Assembly: GCF_032854445.1 (NCBI RefSeq)
Contig: NC_088303.1
Coordinates: 20,777,501 to 20,841,500 of the forward strand
Direction of reading: 5' to 3'
DNA length: 64,000 bases
Source: Liolophura sinensis
Lineage: Eukaryota > Mollusca > Polyplacophora > Chitonida > Chitonidae
The notes under the pieces are model-generated. The model was given only the letters and a program-made list of their open reading frames with translations. It did not search any database and was not told the DNA's origin. Positions within the stretch are counted from its first letter, which is position 1. Every line of letters starts with the position of its first letter. Made by a program: the position numbers and the translations under genes. Below are positions 300 through 64,000 of the stretch, piece by piece.

Positions 300-3200
300 A
301 GTGTTGAACATTTAAGTTGGTTGGGGTTATTTAAAGACATCTCATCAGGAACATCACTGCAACCATTCTGGGACAAGAAAAACTCCATACGAAAAAGCGA
401 AGAGAAGATGAGGCGAACTTTTGATAAATTTCTTAAAATGAGGTAAGTACATGTACATCTCTGAGTCCTGTATAGCCTTTGTTAGAATTCATCATTCGCC
501 TACTGACTCAGTTTTCTGAAGATTCACTGATGTATTCATGTTTTTCGTTCCTTCTGTGTAGCCGTGTACAGGTGACAGATGAGGTTAGTGAGTATCTCAG
601 GAAACCCACCTTCGACAATTGGCAGTGGGATGACTCAGAAATGTTGATATTATTACGCCAAATGTTTATTGATTTGGACTTCATCCGTAAATTTAACATT
701 GAGGTAAGCTTTTTGCTTTTTGTAAGACTCCATGTTTGCGCTGTTTTAGCTTTGATCACCACAACCTGAAGTTGTTTGATGGTTTGTTGGGGGTGTACAC
801 ATGTCTTACACCCATAAACCTGATCATCTTCAAATTGGTGAAATATTCTTGAGTATGGCATAGAACACTGATCAGTTCTCTAGAAGTTACATTTACATGT
901 CTCTAATTAAACTTAAAATGTCTTCAAACTTTTCACATACTTGACCTTATACCTTGGGCACAGCTTCTTCCATGTGTTGAACTGAACTGCATGTGATCTG
1001 TTAGTGAAGCAAAGGACTCGAACCATTTTAACGATAATGCAAAAATGAAGTAAATATGTACTACTAATTGTGAACGTCAAGGAGAGGGTGGATTTTTGTA
1101 GCAGTGAAATTCAGATTAAGATTTTTGAAATTTCTTTATAGTTACCAGTTCTCCATCAATGGTTGTATGAGGTGTATAAGCACTACAATCAAGTTCCTTT
1201 CCACAACTTCAAACATTGCTTTATGGTTACACAAATGGTAAGTTCAGATGGATTTTACACCTTCAAATGAATTGCAATGAAAACAGTTTTGAAAGTTCTT
1301 CTAAATGGGATAAAGTGTAAAATTATCAGCTAGAAAAAGATTTTTCTTTGTTTATTTTAGATTAGAATTGATGCATGATACAATTAAGGTTAGAAACATG
1401 TTTGACTTTGAAGCTTATTGCATGACTTGACGTACATGTATAGGACATTTTAGTGCTTGTATCTGCCAGTACATATGTGTGCACTCCTTGTTTCAGATGT
1501 ATGGCTTGACATGGTTGATAAACCTGCCCAGTTACATGGAGGATATTGATATTCTCATCCTGATCGTGTCTGCTATATGTCATGACCTAGATCATCCAGG
1601 CTACAATAATGCTTACCAAGTGAGTTCTGACATTTAAACTCCACTGCTAACCAATATACCGAATTTACCATTCAGAAAACGTTGTTTTATTAAGGTCATC
1701 ATTTCTGTATTAATATTGAACCATCATGTTTGGAAAAACATATTTCTAAACATAATTTCGCATTGGCAAGGATAGGACTGCTTTCTACCTCTAGTCAAGA
1801 TGAACTAGCCCTGGGATCACAAAGCCACCTTAGACTTATGTCTAAATATTAATCCTTAAATTTGGTATGTTCCTTTCCATTATTTTAGCTGAAATTTGTT
1901 GTACAATAACTTACCCAGAATTTACTTTAGCAAACAATATTATTGCTGCCTTGTTACATTAGGAGTGACAATTCAAAAAAAGTTTGAAATTTTCACTGAA
2001 GTATAAGATCACTTAATGATTGCAAGGCCTGAGACTTTATGTATGTTCAGTGAAAGGATAAAGTTCCATAGTTATAACACTGTTGCGTGGTATTTTTCAG
2101 ATAAATGCGCGCACAGAGCTGGCTCTCAGATACAATGATATATCACCACTAGAGAACCACCACTGTTCGGTAGCGTTTGAACTCCTGGCCAAACGCGACT
2201 GTAACATATTCAGGAATGTCTCTCAGGAGCAGTACAAGAGGATTCGAGAGGGTATCATCAGGTATGATGCTGTCATTTCATGTGGGGACATCCTTTATTG
2301 ATTTTTTTTTTTTATTTGATTATTGCTTAATGCTACCACATCTTGTATGTACACCTACCTATATGTGGTGTGAGGTGCTTCCGTGGCCAACTCAGTGGGT
2401 AGCACTTTTGAGTATGGCATAGAAAAAACAACCTGTCAAATAAGTTCATATTCATGTATGTGGCGTGATCTGTAAGACTTTTTGCACTATATATGAAGCA
2501 CTGTATACTGAACAAGGGTGTGATTGCGTGCATAGATTCCTTCAAAGTTTGTAGGGACATGTATTTGACTACATTATGGCGTAATACTCCAATCAGATAA
2601 ATATATAGATATATAAATTTTTTACTGCATATTAACACATATACATGCAGTACATACATGTATGATGGCAAGACAGATGATAGATCATGATGTCTCTCTA
2701 CTGTTTCTTAGAGCATTACATAGAGCACACAACTTTACACAGCCTGAAATTATGTTTTTTTAATTTTGTGGAAAATCCGGTTTTAGGTTTTATACCCACA
2801 TGATTCATTGTGAATGTTCATGTAGATAACCATGATACTAACAATAAACTCCCATTGCAGATTGGTTATTTATTTATTTATTTGAATGGTGTTTTACGCT
2901 GTACTCAAGAATATTTCACTTATGCGACAGCGGCCAGCATTATGGTGGGCGGAAACCGGGCACAGCCTGGGAAAAAGCCACGATCATGCGCAGGTTGCTG
3001 CAGACCTTCCCACATACCCATTGCAGATTGGATTTTACTCAGAATGGCATGCGAGGGCCAACAATTTGCTGAAAACATAATGGTAGAAATCACCATCCTT
3101 ATATATAATAAATCATAATCATGATTATCTAGAAAACTTTTTGGTTTATTTTCTGGTTATGCAAAATATGATTTTCAGATGCATATTGTCCACTGACATG

Positions 3201-6200
3201 GCCAAACACACTGAAATCGTTAATGGTTTCAAAGCTATCATCCCTGCCTTTGAGTTTTCCAATAAAGAGCATAAAGCCATGGTGAGTATTTGAAATTACA
3301 TAAATATGTGTAATAATATCAAAGTGATTGTCCAGTTCTATTTGAATTATAAAACCACCATGGTACTTTTTCATTTGTGTGCTGGTTGAAGGCTGTTTAT
3401 TTCCACAGTCTGTATCTTATCGCCTAGTGTTAAGCCTAGTTCATGCTATGTACTTGTACAGTATACGTAGATACATGTAATTTAACCCATCAATTTTTCC
3501 ATGTTACACCTAATGAGTTACAAGCTCAAAGCTGAGTGTTTTCCAGACCAGGTTAGTTTTACTATTGCAATGTATACCCCAATATGTATATTAAGGGCAT
3601 GCTGATGAGATATTACCATCATGGCCTGGTCTTTATCACAGGTCATGTCTGTAAAGATCAAGATGCTAGCCTAATGGTTTGTAGGTGATCTGATTTGTGA
3701 TTTGTGATCCTATGCTCGCCCAGGTCAGGAATGACGAATCTTTGGGGTGCAAGTTAGGCAGAGAATAGAAAGAGCTATCAACTCCCCAGTTAAACTGTTG
3801 GTGCATGAATGAGCAAAAACCATAAAAGTGATTGTAGTTGCGCTATGTCAGGAGTTCTCATAAAACAAAAAGCCATTAAGTTGAAGGTTTTTGCTTTTGA
3901 TCTGTGTGATTCCCCAGAAATTGGTTGTCATAACAGTTTTAATTAACAATGTTTTTGTCAAGCTCACCATGATACTGATGAAAGTATCAGACATTTCCAA
4001 CGAAGCCCGACCAATGGATGTTGCTGAACCGTGGCTAGACTGCTTACTTCAAGAGTTTTTTAACCAGGTTTCTTCTTGCTTCCTACCGTGGCATGCAGTC
4101 TGTTATCCAGTGCTTGATTTTGTCAGACCAACCAATATACCATGTATGCTGTAGGTCTTTTCCGTTTATTGTTATAGATGGTTTATTCGGTGGCGTGGTG
4201 TTTTGTGGCATGCTATTTATTTTGATTTGTTGTACACGCACAAGAAATCTTTGAACAATGCACCCTTATTTGTGACTCTAAACTGCTGTCTGTAGCTTTT
4301 TCATTCAAAAATGTCATGATCATTGAGTATGGCGGTATATTATATATCTCCATGGTTTGAGGTATGTGATAAATATGGATCACACAATATCTCGATTAAC
4401 TTGAAAATTTGTGCAGTGTGAAATACAGAACACAGTATTGTTCCTTGTTACATCTAGATGGTGCAAATTATAGAAACATATGTGTAGAAGGGGGTGGAAT
4501 GGAAAATCCAGATATATAGTATACAGTTAAAAAGCTCATGGAAGTAGAATTCTGATATAAAGTCCATGAAGGTCACGACATTGAAATGTCATTGAAATAG
4601 GTAATACAACCTCTGAAAGGAGGATTCCAAACCTATAGAAACTCAAAGGAATATCTGCAGCGAGTTTTGTATTGTTTTACTTCTTTTTCAAGCCGTCTTT
4701 ATTTTGGCTGTGGTTAATAAAAACTGTCCAGTAATCCGAGGTTCTCTGGTTCTTGACACTGGTACTTCCTTTTAGTAGTTTCATCATTCATGCAACAAAA
4801 TTGTCATGCAACAAGATTGAATTTTAAATTCGATTCTATTTAACACGTTTTCATGACAAGAGGGTTGATATTTGTGGAATCAGGATTAAAGAAAGACTTG
4901 AATTGGTGAAATGGAAATATCTTTGACTACCTTTTTATCACATGGTCTCTTCAGTTTTCATTTCCCGTTTCAAGCGGTATGTTTGGATTCTGTTATGTGT
5001 AAAGATGTTGCTGGGGGATGTGGATTGGCTAATCAGTTCAGTGTAAAGATAATAGTACAGAACTGCTTTGTGCGTCATGTGTGTTGTAATATTGCTTTGT
5101 CCGATATTCTAGTCATTGATTATTTATGAGCTTGGTGTTGTTTGCTGCATGAATTGATAATTTGTTATGATTTGACTCCCCTAGCTAATGCTGATATTAA
5201 TCAAAGCGGCTGACATTTCCAATGAAGTGCGACCTGTTGAAGTTGCTGAACCTTGGCTTGAGTGTCTCATGGAAGAATTTTTTCGACAGGTATTGTAAAT
5301 ACATGTAACATCCTCCAGAGACACCAAAACCCTGATCTACAATGTAGATTGAGATACTTAATCGCAACTTAATTGCTCATCATTTCGCTGATGTGAGTAT
5401 GAGCGACTGACTACCGCCGGGCTAATCAAACGAAGGGAAATTCACCGTACCTTGACACATAAATAAATATAGTCATACATACATGTATATCAAAAACTTA
5501 AAGACGTACTAGAGTTATAAGTTTTTGGTGCACTTCGACACTGATGGCATCTACAGTGCCATCATTATTCTTTCTTGTTGATCGAAGACGAGTAACCAGG
5601 TATAAAGCAGCAGTCCCTCCGTAGTCATGAGAGACGAGTAATGACACGAAGAAATAAAAAAAAAATTTGGGAATCGTATCATGGGACAACATGACGACAT
5701 CATTAAATGAGGTAGAAATTACAAGTTTCTTGACATTGTTGGAGTTAACAGGGACACCTTGTTCTGAATGCTGGATCCGGTCTAGTTGAGGTACAGTCTA
5801 TGTAGGGAAAGACTTCTCTATCCTGTGTGTAGTAACTCCCACCGTACCCTTCCCACCCTCGGAACTATTTAGCCTCGTAGAAAAGAATACAAGGTCATTT
5901 TTATCCCAGAAAAAGGTATACTGCAGCAGCTTTTAGCGCCAGGTAGTGCTTTAATGCTCATTGATTATCGGGCAGTATGACGTGACGGAAGCATGCTATA
6001 CGTCTTGCCAGATAGCTTACTACTTTTTCGTTTAGGTGTTTTGTGTGTAGCGCTGGTTAGATGTTTTGATGTAAGTTGTGTACCAAATTAATGTGTTGTT
6101 ATTTTGTGTCAAAGTTTGTGTGTTTTTTTCTACTTTTCCTTAGTCATAATTGAATGAATAATAAACTATATTTCATACCACGGTGGTTTAACCTTTTTGA

Positions 6201-7075
6201 GAATTTAAGATTTGTAATCTTCGTAAGGCATAGTTTCTATACTCATGTTATGGAATATTACTACAGTGATACCAGTTAACTCTTGTGGACAGCAAATCTG
6301 TGATTGGAACCTGTTTAACAGCGCCTGGTAATTCACGGTTTTATTTGAAGAGTGACGTTGAGAAGCTGGAAGGACTCCCTGTAGCACCATTCATGGACAG
6401 GGAGAAAGTCACCAAGTCTTCGTCTCAAATTGGATTCATTAAGTTTGTCTTACTCCCTTTGTTTGAAACCCTTGGGCAGCTTTTTCCAGTGGTAGAGGTC
6501 AGTTTTAACTTTTTATAACTCTTCACGGTAATATATTGAACTAATGTGGGATAAATTTCATGAAAACAAATATAAAATAGTAATAGGTAGGGTGTGATCT
6601 ATTTATATATTTATTTATTTAATTGGTGCTTGACACTGTACTTAAGAATATTTCACTTATACGACGGCCGTCAAGATTATGGTGGGAGGAAACCGGACAG
6701 AGCCCTGAGGAAAACCATAGCCATCCGCCATAATGCTGGCTGCTGTGAAATATTCTTGAATGTGGCGTAAAACTCCAGTCAAATAAATATATAAATACTA
6801 GAGTGATGTAGCTAAATGTTAACATTATCAAGAAAGAAAGGAATTAGAACTCTTCGATCAAGTGTGGATGAACGAGCGGTATTATCAGAGTGTGGTAAGA
6901 ATGGCCAATTCTCAATTTAAGGCTCCTCTTATTATATTATTTGTAGGATCAAATTATCCAGCCTGTCAGATTTGCCCTGAAGTACTACACGGACATGCAG
7001 AAGGCGTTAGACGAGGGCAAAAGACGTAAGGGGTCAACGGGTCGACAAAACAGCAAAAATGGCTTGAAATCATGA
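300..7075 (+). CDS. PDE9A: PDE9-type cGMP 3',5'-cyclic phosphodiesterase, 3' part of gene
   Basis: Hydrolyses cGMP to GMP in the cytoplasm. Exons read from the sequence: 300-442, 562-703, 1142-1237, 1497-1619, 2101-2261, 3179-3281, then either 3963-4067 or 5185-5289, then 6351-6497 and 6947-7075 (TGA at 7073-7075). All junctions are GT-AG and in phase. The protein carries the class I PDE signatures: [10 protein letters not shown], the general-acid His and metal His in FHNFKHC, the metal pair in [34 protein letters not shown], the metal Asp in DISNE, and the SSQIGFIKF segment with the nucleotide-binding Gln and Phe. The match to the human PDE9A catalytic domain is close throughout, which separates it from other PDE families. 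The first exon opens with an acceptor at 298-299, so upstream exons lie outside the window. The C-terminus is short and basic (ends GLKS), unlike the longer vertebrate tail. Family certain; orthology to PDE9A very likely. Confidence 0.95.
839..868 (+). repeat. 3'-end fragment of the SINE-1 family
   Basis: About 30 bases match the terminal part of the main SINE (tgaaatattcttgagt then a degraded ggcgtaaaacac). It lies in a PDE9 intron. A similar scrap is at about 2406-2426. Confidence 0.45.
2866..3016 (-). mobile_element. 5'-truncated SINE-1 insertion with 15-bp target-site duplication
   Basis: In a PDE9 intron. The 15-mer CCCATTGCAGATTGG occurs at 2851-2865 and again at 3017-3031, immediately flanking the element. 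On the minus strand the element ends in the conserved tail and (AAATA)n. The tRNA-like head is missing, as expected for incomplete reverse transcription by a LINE partner. Confidence 0.88.
3963..4067 (+). CDS. PDE9 alternative catalytic exon, copy a
   Basis: A 105-nt exon encoding 35 residues, beginning [17 protein letters not shown] and ending CLLQEFFNQ. It holds the invariant Asp-x-x-Asn-Glu of the metal and purine pocket. The acceptor is TTTTTGTCAAG and the donor is the weak CAG|GTTTCT. Both ends are phase 0, so it joins 3281 and 6351 cleanly. It is 23/35 identical to the copy at 5185-5289. Use of both copies together would insert an extra 35 residues in the catalytic core, so one-or-the-other use is inferred. 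Confidence 0.85.
5185..5289 (+). CDS. PDE9 alternative catalytic exon, copy b
   Basis: A second 105-nt, phase 0/0 exon, beginning [17 protein letters not shown] and ending CLMEEFFRQ. It has a good acceptor (GACTCCCCTAG) and donor CAG|GTATTG. It resembles the single exon remembered for human PDE9A ([15 protein letters not shown]) slightly more than copy a does. Both copies carry Phe where human PDE9A has Tyr424, next to the substrate pocket. The intron separating the copies is 1,117 nt. Confidence 0.88.
6603..6797. mobile_element. Inverted (foldback) pair of SINE-1 3' halves
   Basis: The left part is a minus-strand SINE-1 copy (tail outward, starting with TTTATTTATTT). The right part, from about 6730, is a plus-strand copy ending in AATAAATATATAAATA. 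The two tails face outward, so the unit can fold into a long hairpin. It lies in the last PDE9 intron, about 150 bp before the terminal exon. Confidence 0.75.
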
Positions 7076-24659: not shown

Positions 24660-25165
24660 TCCAGACATCTGTCACCTCCACATCTGTCCTCAGGCCCCAA
24701 GTCAAACACAGACCTACACATCCAGACATCTGTCATCTCCACATCTGTCCCCGGGCCCCAAGTCAAACACAGCCCTACACATCCAGACATCTGTCATCTC
24801 CACATCTGTCCCCAAGTCAAACACAGACCTACACATCCAGATATCTGTCATCTCCACATTTGTCCTCGGGGCCCCAAGTCAAACACAGACCTACACACCC
24901 AGACATCTGTCATCTCCACATCTGTCCCCGGGCCCCAAGTCAAACACAGACCTACACATCCAGACATCTGTCATCTCCACATCTGTCCCTGGGCCCCAAG
25001 TCAAACACAGACCTATACATCCAGACATCTGTCATCTCCACATCTGTCCTCGGGGCCCCAAGTCAAACACAGACCTACACATCCAGACATCTGTCATCTC
25101 CACATTTGTCCTCGGGGCTCCAAGTCAAACACAGACCTACACATCCAGACATCTATCATTCATCG
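24660..25165. repeat. Minisatellite, unit about 61 bp, just past the NOL7 stop codon
   Basis: About eight units of CCCCAAGTCAAACACAGACC, TACACATCCAGACATCTGTC and ATCTCCACATCTGTCC plus a variable GGG run. One unit lacks about 12 bases. It begins about 50 bp beyond the NOL7 stop, so it probably lies in that gene's 3' UTR. It keeps two long spurious plus-strand frames open. Confidence 0.9.
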
Positions 25166-35834: not shown

Positions 35835-36372
35835 AAAGGGTCTGCGACAGAAAGTAATGTGTGACAGCACCGACTACAGGAAACGCCTATGACAGAAAGT
35901 AATGTGTGAGAGCACCCACTACAGGAAACGCCTATGACAGAAAGTAATGTGTGACAGAACCGATTATAGGAAACGCCAATGACAGAAAGTAATGTGTGAG
36001 AGCACCGACTACAGGAAACGTCTGTGACAGAAAGTAATGTGTGCGAGCACCCACTACAGGAAACGCCTATGACAGAAAGTAATGTGTGAGAGCACCGACT
36101 ACGCGAAACGCCTATGACAGAAAGTAATGTGTGACAGAACCGATTATAGGAAACGTCTGTGACAGAAAGTAATGTGTGCGAGCACCGACTACAGGAAACG
36201 CCTATGACAGAAAGTAATGTGTGAAAGCACCGACTACAGGAAACGCCTATGACAGAAAGTAATGTGTGAGAGCACCGACTACAGGAAACGCCTGTGACAG
36301 AAAGTAATGTGTGAGAGCACCGACTACAGGAAACGCCTATGACAGAGAGTAATGTGTGAAAGCACCGAAAAC
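35835..36372. repeat. 45-bp minisatellite, about 12 units
   Basis: Each unit contains ATGACAGAAAGTAATGTGTG, then AGAGCACCGACTACAGG and AAACGCC. Variants alternate between CTATGAC and CTGTGAC and between GAGAGC and GACAGAAC. Units are 85-98% alike by eye, so the array is fairly young. Confidence 0.93.
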
Positions 36373-36544
36373 AGGTCGATTATATCGAATAATCTTATGT
36401 TACTAAAGCAAGGTTGGGTGAGGATGCGTGGGAAAATCTTATGATACAGAGCCTTAGAATGATTATGGCAGGGAAAATGACTCTATTGGTAAATCTTATG
36501 TTCCAGAGGAGAGTCTGAGCTGCATGCTTTTATATAACAGAAAG

Positions 36545-37700
36545 TTATTATATCGACAGATTTTTATGTTAAAGAAGCAATCTTAAGCCTTAGGATGCTT
36601 ATATAACAGAAAAAAATTATATCTGTAAATCCTAAGTCACCGCGGCGAGCCTAGGATGCTTATATAACACAAAACTATTATATCTGTAGATCCTATGTCA
36701 CAGCGGCGAGCCTAGAATGCTTATATAACAGAAAGCTATTATATCTGTAAATCCTATGTCACAGCGGCGAGCCTAGGATGCTTATATAACAGAAAGCTAT
36801 TATATCTGTAAATCCTATGTCACAGCGGCGAGCCTTGGATGCTTATATAACAGAAAGCTATTATATCTGTAAATCCTATGTCACAGCGGCGAGCTTTGGA
36901 TGCTTATATAGCAGAAAGCTATTATATCTGTAAATCCTATGTCACAAAGGCGAGCCTAGGATGCTTATAGAACAGAAAACTATTATATCTGTAAATCCTA
37001 TGTTACAGCGGCGAGCCTGGGATGCTTATATAAAATAAAGCTATTATATTTGTAAATCCTATGTCACAGCGGCGAGCCTTGGATGCTTATATAACAGAAA
37101 GCTATTATATTTGTAAATCCTATGTCACAGCGGCGAGCCTTGGATGCTTATATAACAGAAAACTATTATATCTGTAAATCCTATGTCACAGCGGCGAGCC
37201 TGGGATGCTTATATAACAGAAAGCTATTATATCTGTAAATCCTATGTCACAGCGGTGAGTCTAGGATGCTTATATATCAGAAAGCTATTATATCTGTAAA
37301 TCCTATGTCACAGCGGCGAGCCTTGGATGCTTATATAACAGAAAGCTATTACATCCGTGAATCCTATGTCACAGCGGCGAGCCTTGGATGCTTATATATC
37401 AGAAAACTATTATATCTGTAAATCCTGTGTAACAGCGGCGAGCCTAGGATGCTTATATATCAGAAAGCTATTATATCTGTAAATCCTATGTCACAGCGGC
37501 GAGCTTTGGATGCTTATATAACAGAAAGCTATTATATCTGTAAATCCTATGTCACAGCGGCGAGCCTTGGATGGTTATACAACAGAAAGCTATTATATCT
37601 GTAAATCCTATGTCACAGCGGCGAGCCTTGGATGCTTATATAACAGAAAGCTATTATATCTGTAAATCCTATGTCACAGCGGCGAGTCCGGGATGCTTAC
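36545..37700. repeat. 61-bp minisatellite, about 18 units
   Basis: Each unit is GGATGCTTATATAACAGAAA, GCTATTATATCTGTAAATCC, TATGTCACAGCGGCGAGCCT plus one base. The left edge decays gradually from about 36400. The right edge is interrupted by a palindromic insertion at 37703-37828, after which one more degraded unit follows. Confidence 0.95.
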
Positions 37701-37702
37701 AT

Positions 37703-37828
37703 ACAAAAAACACTTGTGTTGTATAAACACAAACTTGTGTCCTTTACGCCAAAAAATAAAACACATTTCTGTGTTAAAAGTAAACAAAACAAGTTGTGTT
37801 ACATTTCAACACAGGTGTTTTTATGTGT
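37703..37828. mobile_element. Small palindromic MITE inserted in the 61-bp array
   Basis: It starts AAAAAACACTTGTGTTGTA and ends TTTCAACACAGGTGTTTTTA, so the ends are inverted repeats. Internal ACACAAACTTGTGT words are also palindromic. Array-derived sequence lies on both sides. Related palindromic words are at 39215-39540. Confidence 0.65.
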
Positions 37829-40033: not shown

Positions 40034-40290
40034 TACTTACTACAGTCATAATATGAAGTTACTACAGTCATAATATGATGTTACTACAGTCATAATATGA
40101 TGTTACTACAGACATAATATGAAGTTACTACAGTCATAATATGATGTTACTACAGTCATAATATGAAGTTACTACAGTCATAATATGATGTTACTACAGT
40201 CATAATATGATGTTACTACAGACATAATATGAAGTTACTACAGTCATAATATGATGTTACTACAGTCATAATATGAAGTTACTACACTCA
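40034..40290. repeat. 22-bp array with a five-unit higher-order repeat
   Basis: Twelve units of TTACTACAGTCATAATATGA plus two bases. The variants (T or A after CAG; GATG or GAAG at the end) run in the same five-unit order twice, giving a 110-bp higher-order period repeated two times. Confidence 0.92.
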
Positions 40291-40638
40291 TATTATGAGA
40301 GAAAAACATCGTAATAGTACAATTAAGATTGATAATGCATTGTATAATTGCAGCTTCATACATGTAACTTCAGTAAATATTACATAGACATGATAAACTG
40401 ATAGTTGGTGATCGATAAACTGGCAGTTATTTTGGAAGTTTCAGATAAAATTTTAGCTCACAGAAAAGCATTGCATTAAGTGGGAAAAGTTCAGTCATTG
40501 AGCGTGATTTCTGTCTTCTGATATCGACATTGATTTATGAGATTCATCTCAGTGACGATCGAGAAACTCATTATACAAATGAACACAGCAGCAATATATT
40601 GTTCTGGTTAACTCTAGAGAGGACGATGAAGGCAGTAT

Positions 40639-59208: not shown

Positions 59209-59489
59209 TTCTAAAACTGACCTGGTCTGGATGCAAGAAGGCCCGTTGTTTTTACATGTATATGCTCCAGCCTGCCCACGGAACACTGTTGAGCTATCAG
59301 CGGAGGTCTAGAGTGTGGAGGAAATCCTTTTTACTTGTTATAACAGCACAAGCCCTCAGATGCATGTATAGGCGTTAAAACCAGCTATAATCTTTGTATT
59401 AAAGCAAATCTCCACAGGATGCCTTTAGATGGTGCTCCATGCTGTTATAGTATTTTTACCTATTTTTAGGTAATTATTACGTCACCGGA

Positions 59490-59700
59490 GGCTTCACAGG
59501 CAGGCTGACGTACCCCCGCTGATATTGTGCGCGTACTGAAGACTTCACAGGCCTGCTGAGGTACGCCCGCTGATATTGTGAGCGTACTGGAGACTTCACA
59601 GGCCTGCTGAGGTACGCCCGCTGATATTGTGAGCGTACTGGAGACTTCATAGGCCTGCTGAGGTACGCCCACTGATATTATGAACGTACTGGAGACTAGG
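59490..59700. repeat. 51-bp tandem repeat, four units
   Basis: Units of GAGGTACGCCCGCTGATATT, GTGAGCGTACTGGAGACTTC and ACAGGCCTGCT. The outer units carry more changes than the two central ones. It sits just upstream of the otopetrin gene. Confidence 0.92.
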
Positions 59701-60739: not shown

Positions 60740-63700
60740 ACCAGATATGGTGGACAGCAGATTGACACAAGACATGATACCAGAGATCAATATATATGTA
60801 CTAGAGACCAGACATACCAGCTAGTGTACAGACACATTGAATACAACACATATAAATAAGCGAACATACACGCTATACAGCAAAAGGATACAGAGAACGT
60901 ATTGAGCCTATCCATTGACGCTTATCTATTATAAACAGACTTGCCAAACGTCAAGAGTTTAATGACAGATTCCCATCAGTTTATGCCAACAAACCTTCGC
61001 CCGATGGAATTAGACGTAATATGGTTCTATCAATTTCCATGGAAACGGATAAAATGCAATCGTTGTTGCGATTTCATCCCCAGTGTTCACTGTGTACCTC
61101 ATTTTATTATAAACAATTCTATAAATCAGTTCGCTAAATTATATGTAGGTCTGTTTTAAAAATGTGAATTTGGTTTTCGAATTTTATCCCCATGGCATTT
61201 GTACTATTTTAGCTGATTTTAAATATTTTGTTTCGTTTCGAATGTTCTCATTATCGCATCGAAAACCATTTACTGTCTTCTGACATAAAAGATGACTGCA
61301 ATATTGGCTGAGTGGAGCCAAAATCATCCATTCATTCATTCAATTTAAATAACAAAAAGATAAGCAACATGAAGGTGGTTAAAATCCGATACTTACATAT
61401 CTGAGACAGAGAAACTAGCGCTCGTTCAAGTGATTTAAAACTCTAAACTGTGGGCCGGTAATTCTGAAAGATAATACAAACATTTATCATTGATTCAAGT
61501 GACCGGTTAATTGTTTCAGGGATTCATATTTTTTTCAGTAGATTTCTTAATTGTTGTCTTCCCTTTCATTTATTATACTTGTTCATTTTCATCACAGCTT
61601 CCTTGTGATCTGCTCTTTATTTGTTCAAACAATTATTGGAATGATTCCATGATTGGTTTTTTCATTCATGAGATTCAGTGATTGATGTTAAGGGTGACAG
61701 ATTCCGCGACTATCGACATATCAGTCTATCAGCAATTTTTGTTGGCATCGGTATATACACTGAACAAAAGAAAACTTCACATTTGGAAAAATGAATTATA
61801 ATGCAAATGGGTAGTGCAAGGTAATTAATATGGGCGAATATATGCCAGAATGGTCACGTCAATCCTGCCGAATTCCACCATAGCAATTGTGGTGAACAAC
61901 GCGGGGTACTGTGGTTGTGGTCATGAGATGCAGTGGACTAACAACTCACAACCTGAAGACACATCTGCATCGGACTTGTACCACATCTGATCGCCCCAGG
62001 TCAGAATGTTCAAGACCTGGGCGCCATGTTGGTAAGGTAATGGTGCAGGTTGCCCAGTGCTGTGTCCATGGATGAGATTCAGTCAATGAGACAACGTCGC
62101 CATGCTGTTGTGAATGTGAGAAGGGGACAAACGCGATACTGAGCAAACATGGCCAGTCCCTGTGACCTCTTCATACTACTGTACACTGTGTGTGTGTGGA
62201 GGGGTGGGGGGGGGGACAAATTGACTGTAATTCCCAATCGTATTTTAGTGTACGCACCGGACATGGTGGACAGCAGATGGAGACAATACATGATACCAAA
62301 GGTCAATATATATGTACTAGAGACCAGACATACCAGCTAGTGTACAGACACACTGAATACAACACATATAAATAAGCGAACATGCACGCTATATAGCAAA
62401 ATGATACAGAGAACGTATTGAGCCTATCCATTGACGCTTGTCTATTATAAACAGACTTGCCAAACGTCAAGAATTTAATGACAGATTCCCATCAGTTTAT
62501 GCCAACAAACCTTCGCCCGATGGAATTAGACATGATATGGTTCTATCAATTTCCATGGAAACGGATAAAACGCAATCGTTGTTGCCAGTGAGACTGCAAG
62601 TCTATCGTGGATTTCATCCCCAGTGTTCACTGTGTACCTCATTTTATTATAAACAATTCTATAAATCAGTTCGCTAAATTATATACAGGTCTGTTTTAAA
62701 AATGTGAATTTGGTTTTCGAATTTTATCCCCATGGCATTTGTACTATATTAGCTGATTTTAAATATTTTGTTTCGTTTCGAATGTTCTCATTATCGCATC
62801 GAAAACCATTTACTGTCTTCTGACATAAAATATGACTGCAATATTGACGGAGTGGCGTCAAAATCATCCGTACATTCATTCATTCATTCATTTTAAATAA
62901 CGAAAAGAAGATAAGCAACATGAAGGTGGTTAAAATCCGATACTTACATATCTGAGACAGAGAAACTAGCGCTCGTTCAAGTGATTTAAAACTCTAAACT
63001 GTGGGCCGGTAATTCTGAAAGATAATACAAACATTTATCATTGGTTCAAGTGACCGGTTAATTGTTTCAGGGATTCATTTTTTTTTCATAAGTAGATTTC
63101 TTAATTGTTGTCTTCCTTTTCATTTATTACACTTGTTCATTTTCATCACAGCTCCCTTGTGATCTGCTCTTTGTTTGTTTAAACAATTATTGGAATGATT
63201 CCATGATTGGTTTTTTCATTCATGAGATTCAGTGATTGATGTTAAGGGTGATAGATTCCGCGACTATCGACATATCAGTCTATCAGCAATTTTTGTTGGC
63301 ATCGGTATATACACTGAACAAAAAAAAAGAATTTTAATGCAAATGGGTAGTGCAAGGTAATTAATATGGGCGAATATATGCTAGAATGGTCACGTCAATC
63401 CTGCCGAATTCCACCATAGCAATTGTGGTGAACAACGCGGGGTACTGTGGTTGTGGTCATGAGATGCAGTGGACTAACAACTCACAACCTGAAGACACAT
63501 GTGCATCGGACTTGTACCACATCTGATCGCCCCAGGTCAGAATGTTCAAGACCTGGGCGCCATGTTGGTAATGTAATGGTGCAGGTTGCCCAGTGCTGTG
63601 TCCATGGATGAGATTCAGTCAATGAGACAACGTCGCCATGCTGTTGTGAATGTGAGAAGGGGACAAACGCGATACTGAGCAAACATGGCCAGTCCCTGTG

Positions 63701-64000
63701 ACCTCTTCATACTACTGTACACTGTGTGTGTGTGGAGGGGGGAGGGGGGACAAATTGACTGTATATTCCCAATCGTATTTTAGTGTACGCACCGGACATG
63801 GTGGACAGCAGATGGAGACAATACATGATACCAAAGATCAATATATATGTACTAGAGACCAGACATACCAGCTAGTGTACAGACACATTGAATACAACAC
63901 ATAAATAAGCGAACATGCACGCTATATAGCAAAATGATACAGAGAACGTATTGAACGTATTGAACGTCAAGAATTTAATGACAGATTCCCATCAGTTTAT
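60740..64000. repeat. Tandem array of about 1.5-kb units, more than two copies, runs off the window
   Basis: ATGGTGGACAGCAGAT recurs near 60749, 62264 and 63799, giving periods of about 1,515 and 1,535 bp. Units one and two match almost throughout. Unit 2 has about 25 extra bases (near 62588) absent from unit 1; unit 1 has a stretch after GAACAAAAG that is shortened in unit 2; and unit 3 lacks about 40 bases after GAACGTATTGA. No convincing gene is inside. A plus-strand reading near 61980 gives SDRPRSE, faintly like a Tc1-type transposase, too little to name. Confidence 0.9.

Follow-up and report, generated by a model that had tools for sequence, protein, structure and literature searches.

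Old twin exons in the catalytic core of a PDE9-like gene from a chiton, Liolophura sinensis, and a candidate RBFOX switch between them

The closest described systems are pairs of homologous exons whose choice depends on UGCAUG. In FGFR2, UGCAUG in intron 8, between the twin exons, represses exon 9, and the upstream exon is chosen; the downstream exon is described as the one used by default, and an imbalance between the 3' splice sites as essential (PMC2880598). Exon 5B of C. elegans egl-15 is repressed by RBFOX proteins, which act via UGCAUG in the intron before it (PMC3585155). Sequence criteria that have been published for mutually exclusive exons are similar length, frame, splice sites and homology (PMC3228551). 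Here we describe two tandem exons in the catalytic core of a phosphodiesterase (PDE) gene of Liolophura sinensis. The gene is likely, although well short of certain, to be a diverged PDE9-like gene with old exon twins that are used one at a time, the choice being made most likely by RBFOX.

The window, by which we mean the whole stretch of 64,000 nucleotides analyzed (forward strand of NC_088303.1, positions 20,777,501 to 20,841,500), carries the gene on its plus strand. The 5' part of the gene precedes the window, and the first exon within it was placed at 300..442 from its reading frame and splice sites. Catalytic exons at 562..703 and 1142..1237 (the latter with FHNFKHCF) were identified by splice sites and alignment to human PDE9A. 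For the exons at 1497..1619 (CHDLDHPG metal ligands), 2101..2261 (PLENHH) and 6351..6497 (invariant glutamine) an exon profile was also available, and the exon at 3179..3281 (ILSTDMA) was placed by its donor at 3282, an exon profile and the PDE9A alignment. Between the last two lie the twins, exon A at 3963..4067 and exon B at 5185..5289, both supported by translation, splice sites and Pfam model PF00233, and separated by a GT...AG intron of 1117 nt (4068..5184) that holds the proposed switch elements. The last coding exon, at 6947..7075, ends in a TGA stop and was placed by sequence, frame and acceptor. By eye, a pair of dispersed repeats that resemble each other and share one orientation was noted in introns of the gene, at ~2876-3030 and ~6600-6790 of the window. 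Elsewhere in the window minisatellites were observed at 24660-25159 (period ~61 bases), 35846-36375 (~45), 36586-37703 (~61), 40037-40298 (~22) and 59487-59697 (~51), as was a direct duplication with a spacing of ~1.5 kb, seen as paired ORF matches at ~61335-62423 and ~62883-63974.

Exons A and B are each 105 nt long and in phase 0/0, with AG before and GT after both. Their peptides share 23 of 35 residues and their DNA 74 of 105 positions, with 16/35 third but 31/35 second codon positions identical. Both align with residues 393-427 of human PDE9A (each 24/34 identical), both contain D402, N405 and E406 (human numbering), and both match PF00233 (A with 30.7 bits, above the cut-off; B with 35 bits). 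The best solved structures for exon B were those of human PDE9A, and a tblastn search with A against the window and the stretches L001-L010 (144 kb together) recovered B at E 1.9e-14, a similarity far above chance. The twins thus agree in length and phase, have compatible splice sites and encode homologous versions of one segment of the fold, as expected of tandem-duplicated mutually exclusive exons. A preliminary description of this DNA had given the positions of both exons, the upstream donor and the acceptor before 6351, all of which were correct when the sequence was read again. Its figures of 105 nt, phase 0/0 and 23/35 identity were reproduced from translation and alignment, its three clusters of differences (KVS/KAA, NEARPMD/NEVRPVE and LLQEFFNQ/LMEEFFRQ) had been quoted correctly, and its statement that both copies retain the invariant residues and splice sites agrees with D402, N405, E406 and AG/GT in each.

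Joined to its neighboring exons, the exon-B form aligned with human PDE9A over 289 residues with 417 bits, compared to 199 bits for the best solved structure other than PDE9A among the best 60 of 141 matches. This wider ranking refers to the B form, the A form being compared with human PDE9A only, and in that comparison each form was identical at 176/289 residues. The metal-binding His/Asp residues, D402 and the invariant Gln453 (SQIGF) were all kept in the alignment (names of metal ligands and pocket residues as in PMC10587872). A search of the 609-Mb assembly (632 contigs) with A and B found a third related exon on contig C1, 69% identical to A and 66% to B; after this exon the remaining matches genome-wide had E values of 0.0078 or worse. 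The gene on C1 has a single copy of this Asp402-type exon in the 10 kb examined, and that copy is identical to human PDE9A at 32/35 residues. In the four segments compared (e4, e5, D402 and e9) the C1 gene was closer to human PDE9A than to the window gene. The C1 gene is therefore the more canonical one, which makes the window gene a diverged PDE9-like paralogue. The name PDE9 given in the preliminary description thus stands for the family (417 vs 199 bits) but not for canonical PDE9, which lies on C1.

The same label follows from residue 424. Tyr424 is reported to be confined to PDE8/PDE9 and to matter for inhibitor selectivity (PMC7011943); we treat it as a typical and not as a defining residue of PDE9. 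Both twins have Phe424 and also Leu417, whereas human PDE9A and canonical chiton PDE9 have Tyr and Val at these positions. Phe424 would separate the window gene from canonical PDE9, and not A from B. That A and B have Leu417/Phe424 in common suggests that the exon was doubled after the two genes had parted; this order rests on the shared residues, 35 residues being too few for a firm tree. High-affinity cGMP hydrolysis is a putative activity of the product of the window gene.

For A against B, NG86 gave a dN of 0.22 and a dS of 1.72; since the ML estimate of dS was 22 and unusable, we describe dS only as near saturation. In a neutral simulation (five divergence levels bracketing the observed third-position identity, 2000 runs per level), protein identity never exceeded 19/35, compared to the 23/35 observed. 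When A received 20 neutral substitutions, only 1.8% of 4000 runs were left with eight or fewer changes and no stop. Identity to canonical chiton PDE9 was 24/35 for A and 23/35 for B. Neither twin has drifted further, and neither therefore looks like a long-dead copy. The earlier opinion that neither copy looks dead holds well with saturated synonymous sites in a constrained protein, the lack of stops and intact splice sites. The pattern indicates that both exons are under long selective constraint.

Some features of A nevertheless would fit a relic that has gone out of use. Its donor is the weaker one (U1 pairing of -5.6 vs -7.2 for B, with seven other scored donors ranging from -5.2 to -10.2) and its acceptor is AAG, while that of B is TAG. 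Dead copies also occur in this genome: locus L004 (G000:C8:3026001-3033000, minus strand; 2919-2818 and 2544-2473) has a second partial copy of the Asp402-type exon (24 residues) that differs only by a stop codon and is apparently a recent dead copy amid repeats. However, the AAG acceptor is found at exon 6351 as well, and the window twins are equally conserved and free of stops, with intact splice sites. We consider it highly improbable that one of them is a relic.

Comparison of the plus-strand flanks of A with those of B gave only matches of 10-11 bases, which is chance level (E 0.84 and 0.19). An allelic, assembly-derived or recent duplicate was rejected because of the synonymous divergence and the unrelated flanks. 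For the pair in the window, an old tandem duplication offers the best explanation of the sequences.

Because 105 is a multiple of three, inclusion of both exons would not shift the reading frame, and frame-dependent decay cannot enforce exclusion; exclusion via frameshift and nonsense-mediated decay was ruled out for this reason. Both exons being frame-neutral, the reading frame would equally forbid nothing if A and B were included together or if one of them were a cassette exon, adding 35 residues to the core. Such inclusion would, however, put a second Asp402 segment into a core that aligns with PDE9A over its 289 residues with B alone, and features such as those of the twins are reported to be rare in constitutive or differentially included exons (90/16180, Drosophila X; PMC3228551). 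We therefore give joint or cassette inclusion very little probability, and mutually exclusive use of A and B is probably the best reading of the locus.

Exon twins were found in other PDE genes of the same genome. A Pfam search gave at least 45 exon matches, which were grouped by position into at least 13 PDE loci including the window. Profiles for five exon types were seeded with sequences of these same loci and used to scan 6-10 kb of each of the 12 other loci and the first 9 kb of the window. They detected an Asp402-type exon in 13/13 loci (in L012 only at E 0.003), and for the five exon types covered, intact tandem-duplicated catalytic exons were present in at least three of the 13, making four pairs. 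In canonical PDE9 (L002; G000:C1:69440001-69450000, minus strand) it is the ILATDMA exon, directly ahead of the Asp402-type exon, that is doubled. The twins, of 117 and 114 nt, lie at 4782-4898 and 5555-5668 of the reverse complement, both in phase 0/0 and bounded by GT-AG; they are identical to each other at 22/38 residues and to human PDE9A at 27/38 and 23/38. A PDE10-like gene (L009 and L015; G000:C7:156001-166000), for which PDE10A was the best solved match when four of its exons were joined, has two consecutive pairs. Its Asp402-type exon is doubled (112 and 112 nt; 3401-3512 and 4311-4422 in joined coordinates), and so is the next exon (81 and 81 nt; 5155-5235 and 6435-6515). One of the 81-nt twins ends in Gln at the invariant purine-binding glutamine, while the last twin ends in Glu. 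Tandem exon duplications are present in about 10% of animal genes according to a 2002 figure quoted in PMC9013439. Compared to this, 3/13 is not a significant enrichment (P ~0.13), and what we report for PDE loci is recurrence and not a proven enrichment.

The intron between A and B has a candidate RBFOX site close to each end. On the plus strand, GCATG at 4091..4095 begins 24 nt downstream of exon A, and TGCATG at 5146..5151 starts 39 nt before exon B. Only 0.4% of dinucleotide shuffles of this intron carried GCATG no more than 60 nt from each of its ends, and the eight other modelled introns of the window gene all lack GCATG in the 60 nt next to either end. At the inner intron ends of all four pairs (eight flanks of 60 nt) we found four TGCATG, with 0.24 expected, and six GCATG, with 0.54 expected, the expectations being derived from the motif density in 104 kb of PDE loci. 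The eight outer flanks held no TGCATG and one GCATG (0.54 expected). In every one of the four pairs TGCATG was located 60 nt or less from one of the inner splice sites; GCATG was present at both inner ends in two pairs and at one end only in the other two. With the window pair excluded, the remaining three pairs gave P ~8e-4 for either motif. The motif idea arose from the window, where 15 patterns were scanned in the introns, and L002 and L009/L015 were scanned for (T)GCATG only. As the limit of 60 nt and the division into inner and outer flanks were set after the motif positions had been seen, this is not a preregistered test; with its limits set post hoc, the motif pattern can be taken as good evidence.

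As a control, TGCATG was found within 70 nt on either side of 5/64 profile-matched exons, and three of these five were twins; the PDE10-like exon e9a scored below the profile cut and is outside the 64. The other two are exons of L005 and L007, and a twin was not found for either. In L007 TGCATG lies 33 nt before the profile match of the D402 exon (reverse complement 4230-4334). In L005 it lies 48 nt after the profile match of the e6 exon (3378-3431). At ~5505 of the L002 reverse complement, 50 nt before the second twin of canonical PDE9, we found GCATGGTGTGTG, which we take to resemble the joint RBFOX/SUP-12 site of egl-15.

An RBFOX protein is likely to exist in this chiton. An RBFOX-like RRM was found at C1:8470970-8474147 in two pieces, 77% and 83% identical to an RBFOX RRM used as the query; the pieces are at C1:8470970 and C1:8474040, the second reaching only E 0.004. 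The Pfam Fox-1_C model had no match in the genome, nor in any control genome, and is hence uninformative.

The twins could also be exclusive under a different switch, such as RNA structures that compete with each other, a branch point at a distance or a factor other than RBFOX. Competing structures (PMC5740500) and branch-point proximity (PMC7969005) are both established modes of exclusion. In the present gene, however, 16, 15 and 20 of 25 shuffles equalled or surpassed the best duplexes among the three introns, and competing intronic RNA structure was rejected because duplex energies between introns were no better than those of shuffles. Steric exclusion fits poorly with an intron of 1117 nt, which is far above the short distances at which it acts, and with donors that are ordinary GT. 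We consider a switch other than RBFOX unlikely.

With choice by RBFOX as the preferred reading, the locus would work as follows. The duplicated exon, corresponding to residues 393-427 in human PDE9A numbering, would bring the Asp402 metal ligand and the Asn405/Glu406 pair, and one twin per transcript would give two enzymes of the same chemistry that differ in the second shell of residues about Asp402 and on the outward side of the helix that follows. An RBFOX-family protein may bind (T)GCATG in the intron that separates the twins, close behind A and close ahead of B. Exon B would be the default because of its better donor and TAG acceptor compared to the weaker donor and AAG of A. By blocking the default exon B, RBFOX would favor A where it is active, as in FGFR2. 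From the sequence we infer that both twins are spliced, that they are mutually exclusive, that RBFOX acts on them and that the resulting enzymes differ.

How far the two enzymes would differ can be judged from the 12/35 positions that vary between A and B. The preliminary description had placed the changes by the substrate pocket and the following helix and suggested that the two forms might differ in cGMP affinity or inhibitor response. Of the listed pocket contacts within the exon (Ile403, Val417, Leu420, Leu421 and Tyr424; PMC10587872) only 421 varies, between Leu and Met. Residue 421 is a listed hydrophobic contact, and residues 400-401, which vary, adjoin Asp402 in sequence; the variable positions other than 421 are outside the listed contacts. 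A material difference in cGMP affinity or inhibitor response, for which these positions would speak, nevertheless appears doubtful. Asp402, Ile403, Asn405, Glu406 and positions 417, 420 and 424 are identical in A and B, and positions 418, 422 and 426, spaced i, i+4, i+8, should face away from 417, 420 and 424. In human PDE9A the E406A substitution costs no more than about a factor of two in apparent cGMP affinity and in activity (PMC3069055), and human tandem-exon pairs are reported to keep ligand residues more, with changes that are mostly conservative (PMC9741552). A change in affinity or inhibitor response between A and B could thus be drawn from the sequence only as a weak inference. We therefore expect fine tuning by the swap, acting on stability, on contacts with a partner or in a dimer or, to a modest extent, on kinetics, and not a change of substrate or inhibitor class.

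Alternative active-site segments in three PDE genes, with a shared candidate switch, would mean that cyclic-nucleotide signaling is tuned at the enzyme core by splicing. We raise tentatively, and consider possible but on balance not probable, that the PDE9-like, canonical PDE9 and PDE10-like cores are swapped together, with independently arisen twins all keyed to RBFOX. If this were true, cells with RBFOX would rely on a different, second set of active sites for the hydrolysis of cGMP/cAMP, and the PDE10-like swap would replace the invariant glutamine that clamps the purine by glutamate. The pairs of variants that nature provides at the invariant glutamine and in the surroundings of Asp402 would also offer a test of what sets PDE affinity. 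RNA-seq data from five tissues of Liolophura sinensis (digestive gland, foot, gill, gonad and heart; SAMN35319765-69, BioProject PRJNA973839) are public (PMC11068029), and reference-quality genomes exist for other chitons (PMC12005716).

Systems of this kind are known; what we did not find in print is their repeated occurrence, within a single genome, in the catalytic cores of PDEs. No PDEs with duplicated catalytic exons were found in titles and the openings of abstracts, mostly of papers outside subscription, and the word phosphodiesterase is absent from the main text of the surveys of tandem and mutually exclusive exons in PMC9741552 and PMC5740500. Human PDE9A belongs to the same enzyme family and likewise has many splice forms, but its variants are reported to differ at the 5' end and to share one fixed combination of exons in the catalytic half (PMC1647287). 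This agrees with the remark in the preliminary description that no such splicing was known for vertebrate PDE9A. The nearest case from a mollusc enzyme is exon 10 of the alternative oxidase of the oyster Crassostrea virginica, also a tandem exon with alternatively spliced twins, one of which has changes around functional sites (PMC5589949). It differs in being a terminal exon of another enzyme with measured expression, and the abstract names no RBFOX element (PMC5589949). In FGFR2 (exons 8/9) and in egl-15 and unc-32 of C. elegans, as proposed for the chiton gene, homologous exons are used one per transcript and UGCAUG is located in a flanking intron (PMC2880598; PMC3585155). The layout of unc-32, with UGCAUG in intron 7b and an UNC-75 site in intron 7a, differs from that of the chiton gene. 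The layout of FGFR2 is alike in that UGCAUG lies between the twins and near the second exon, the one it represses (PMC2880598). Reporters were used to test these three systems, which concern receptors and a proton-pump subunit, whereas the chiton case concerns an enzyme core in a mollusc and is built on sequence evidence.
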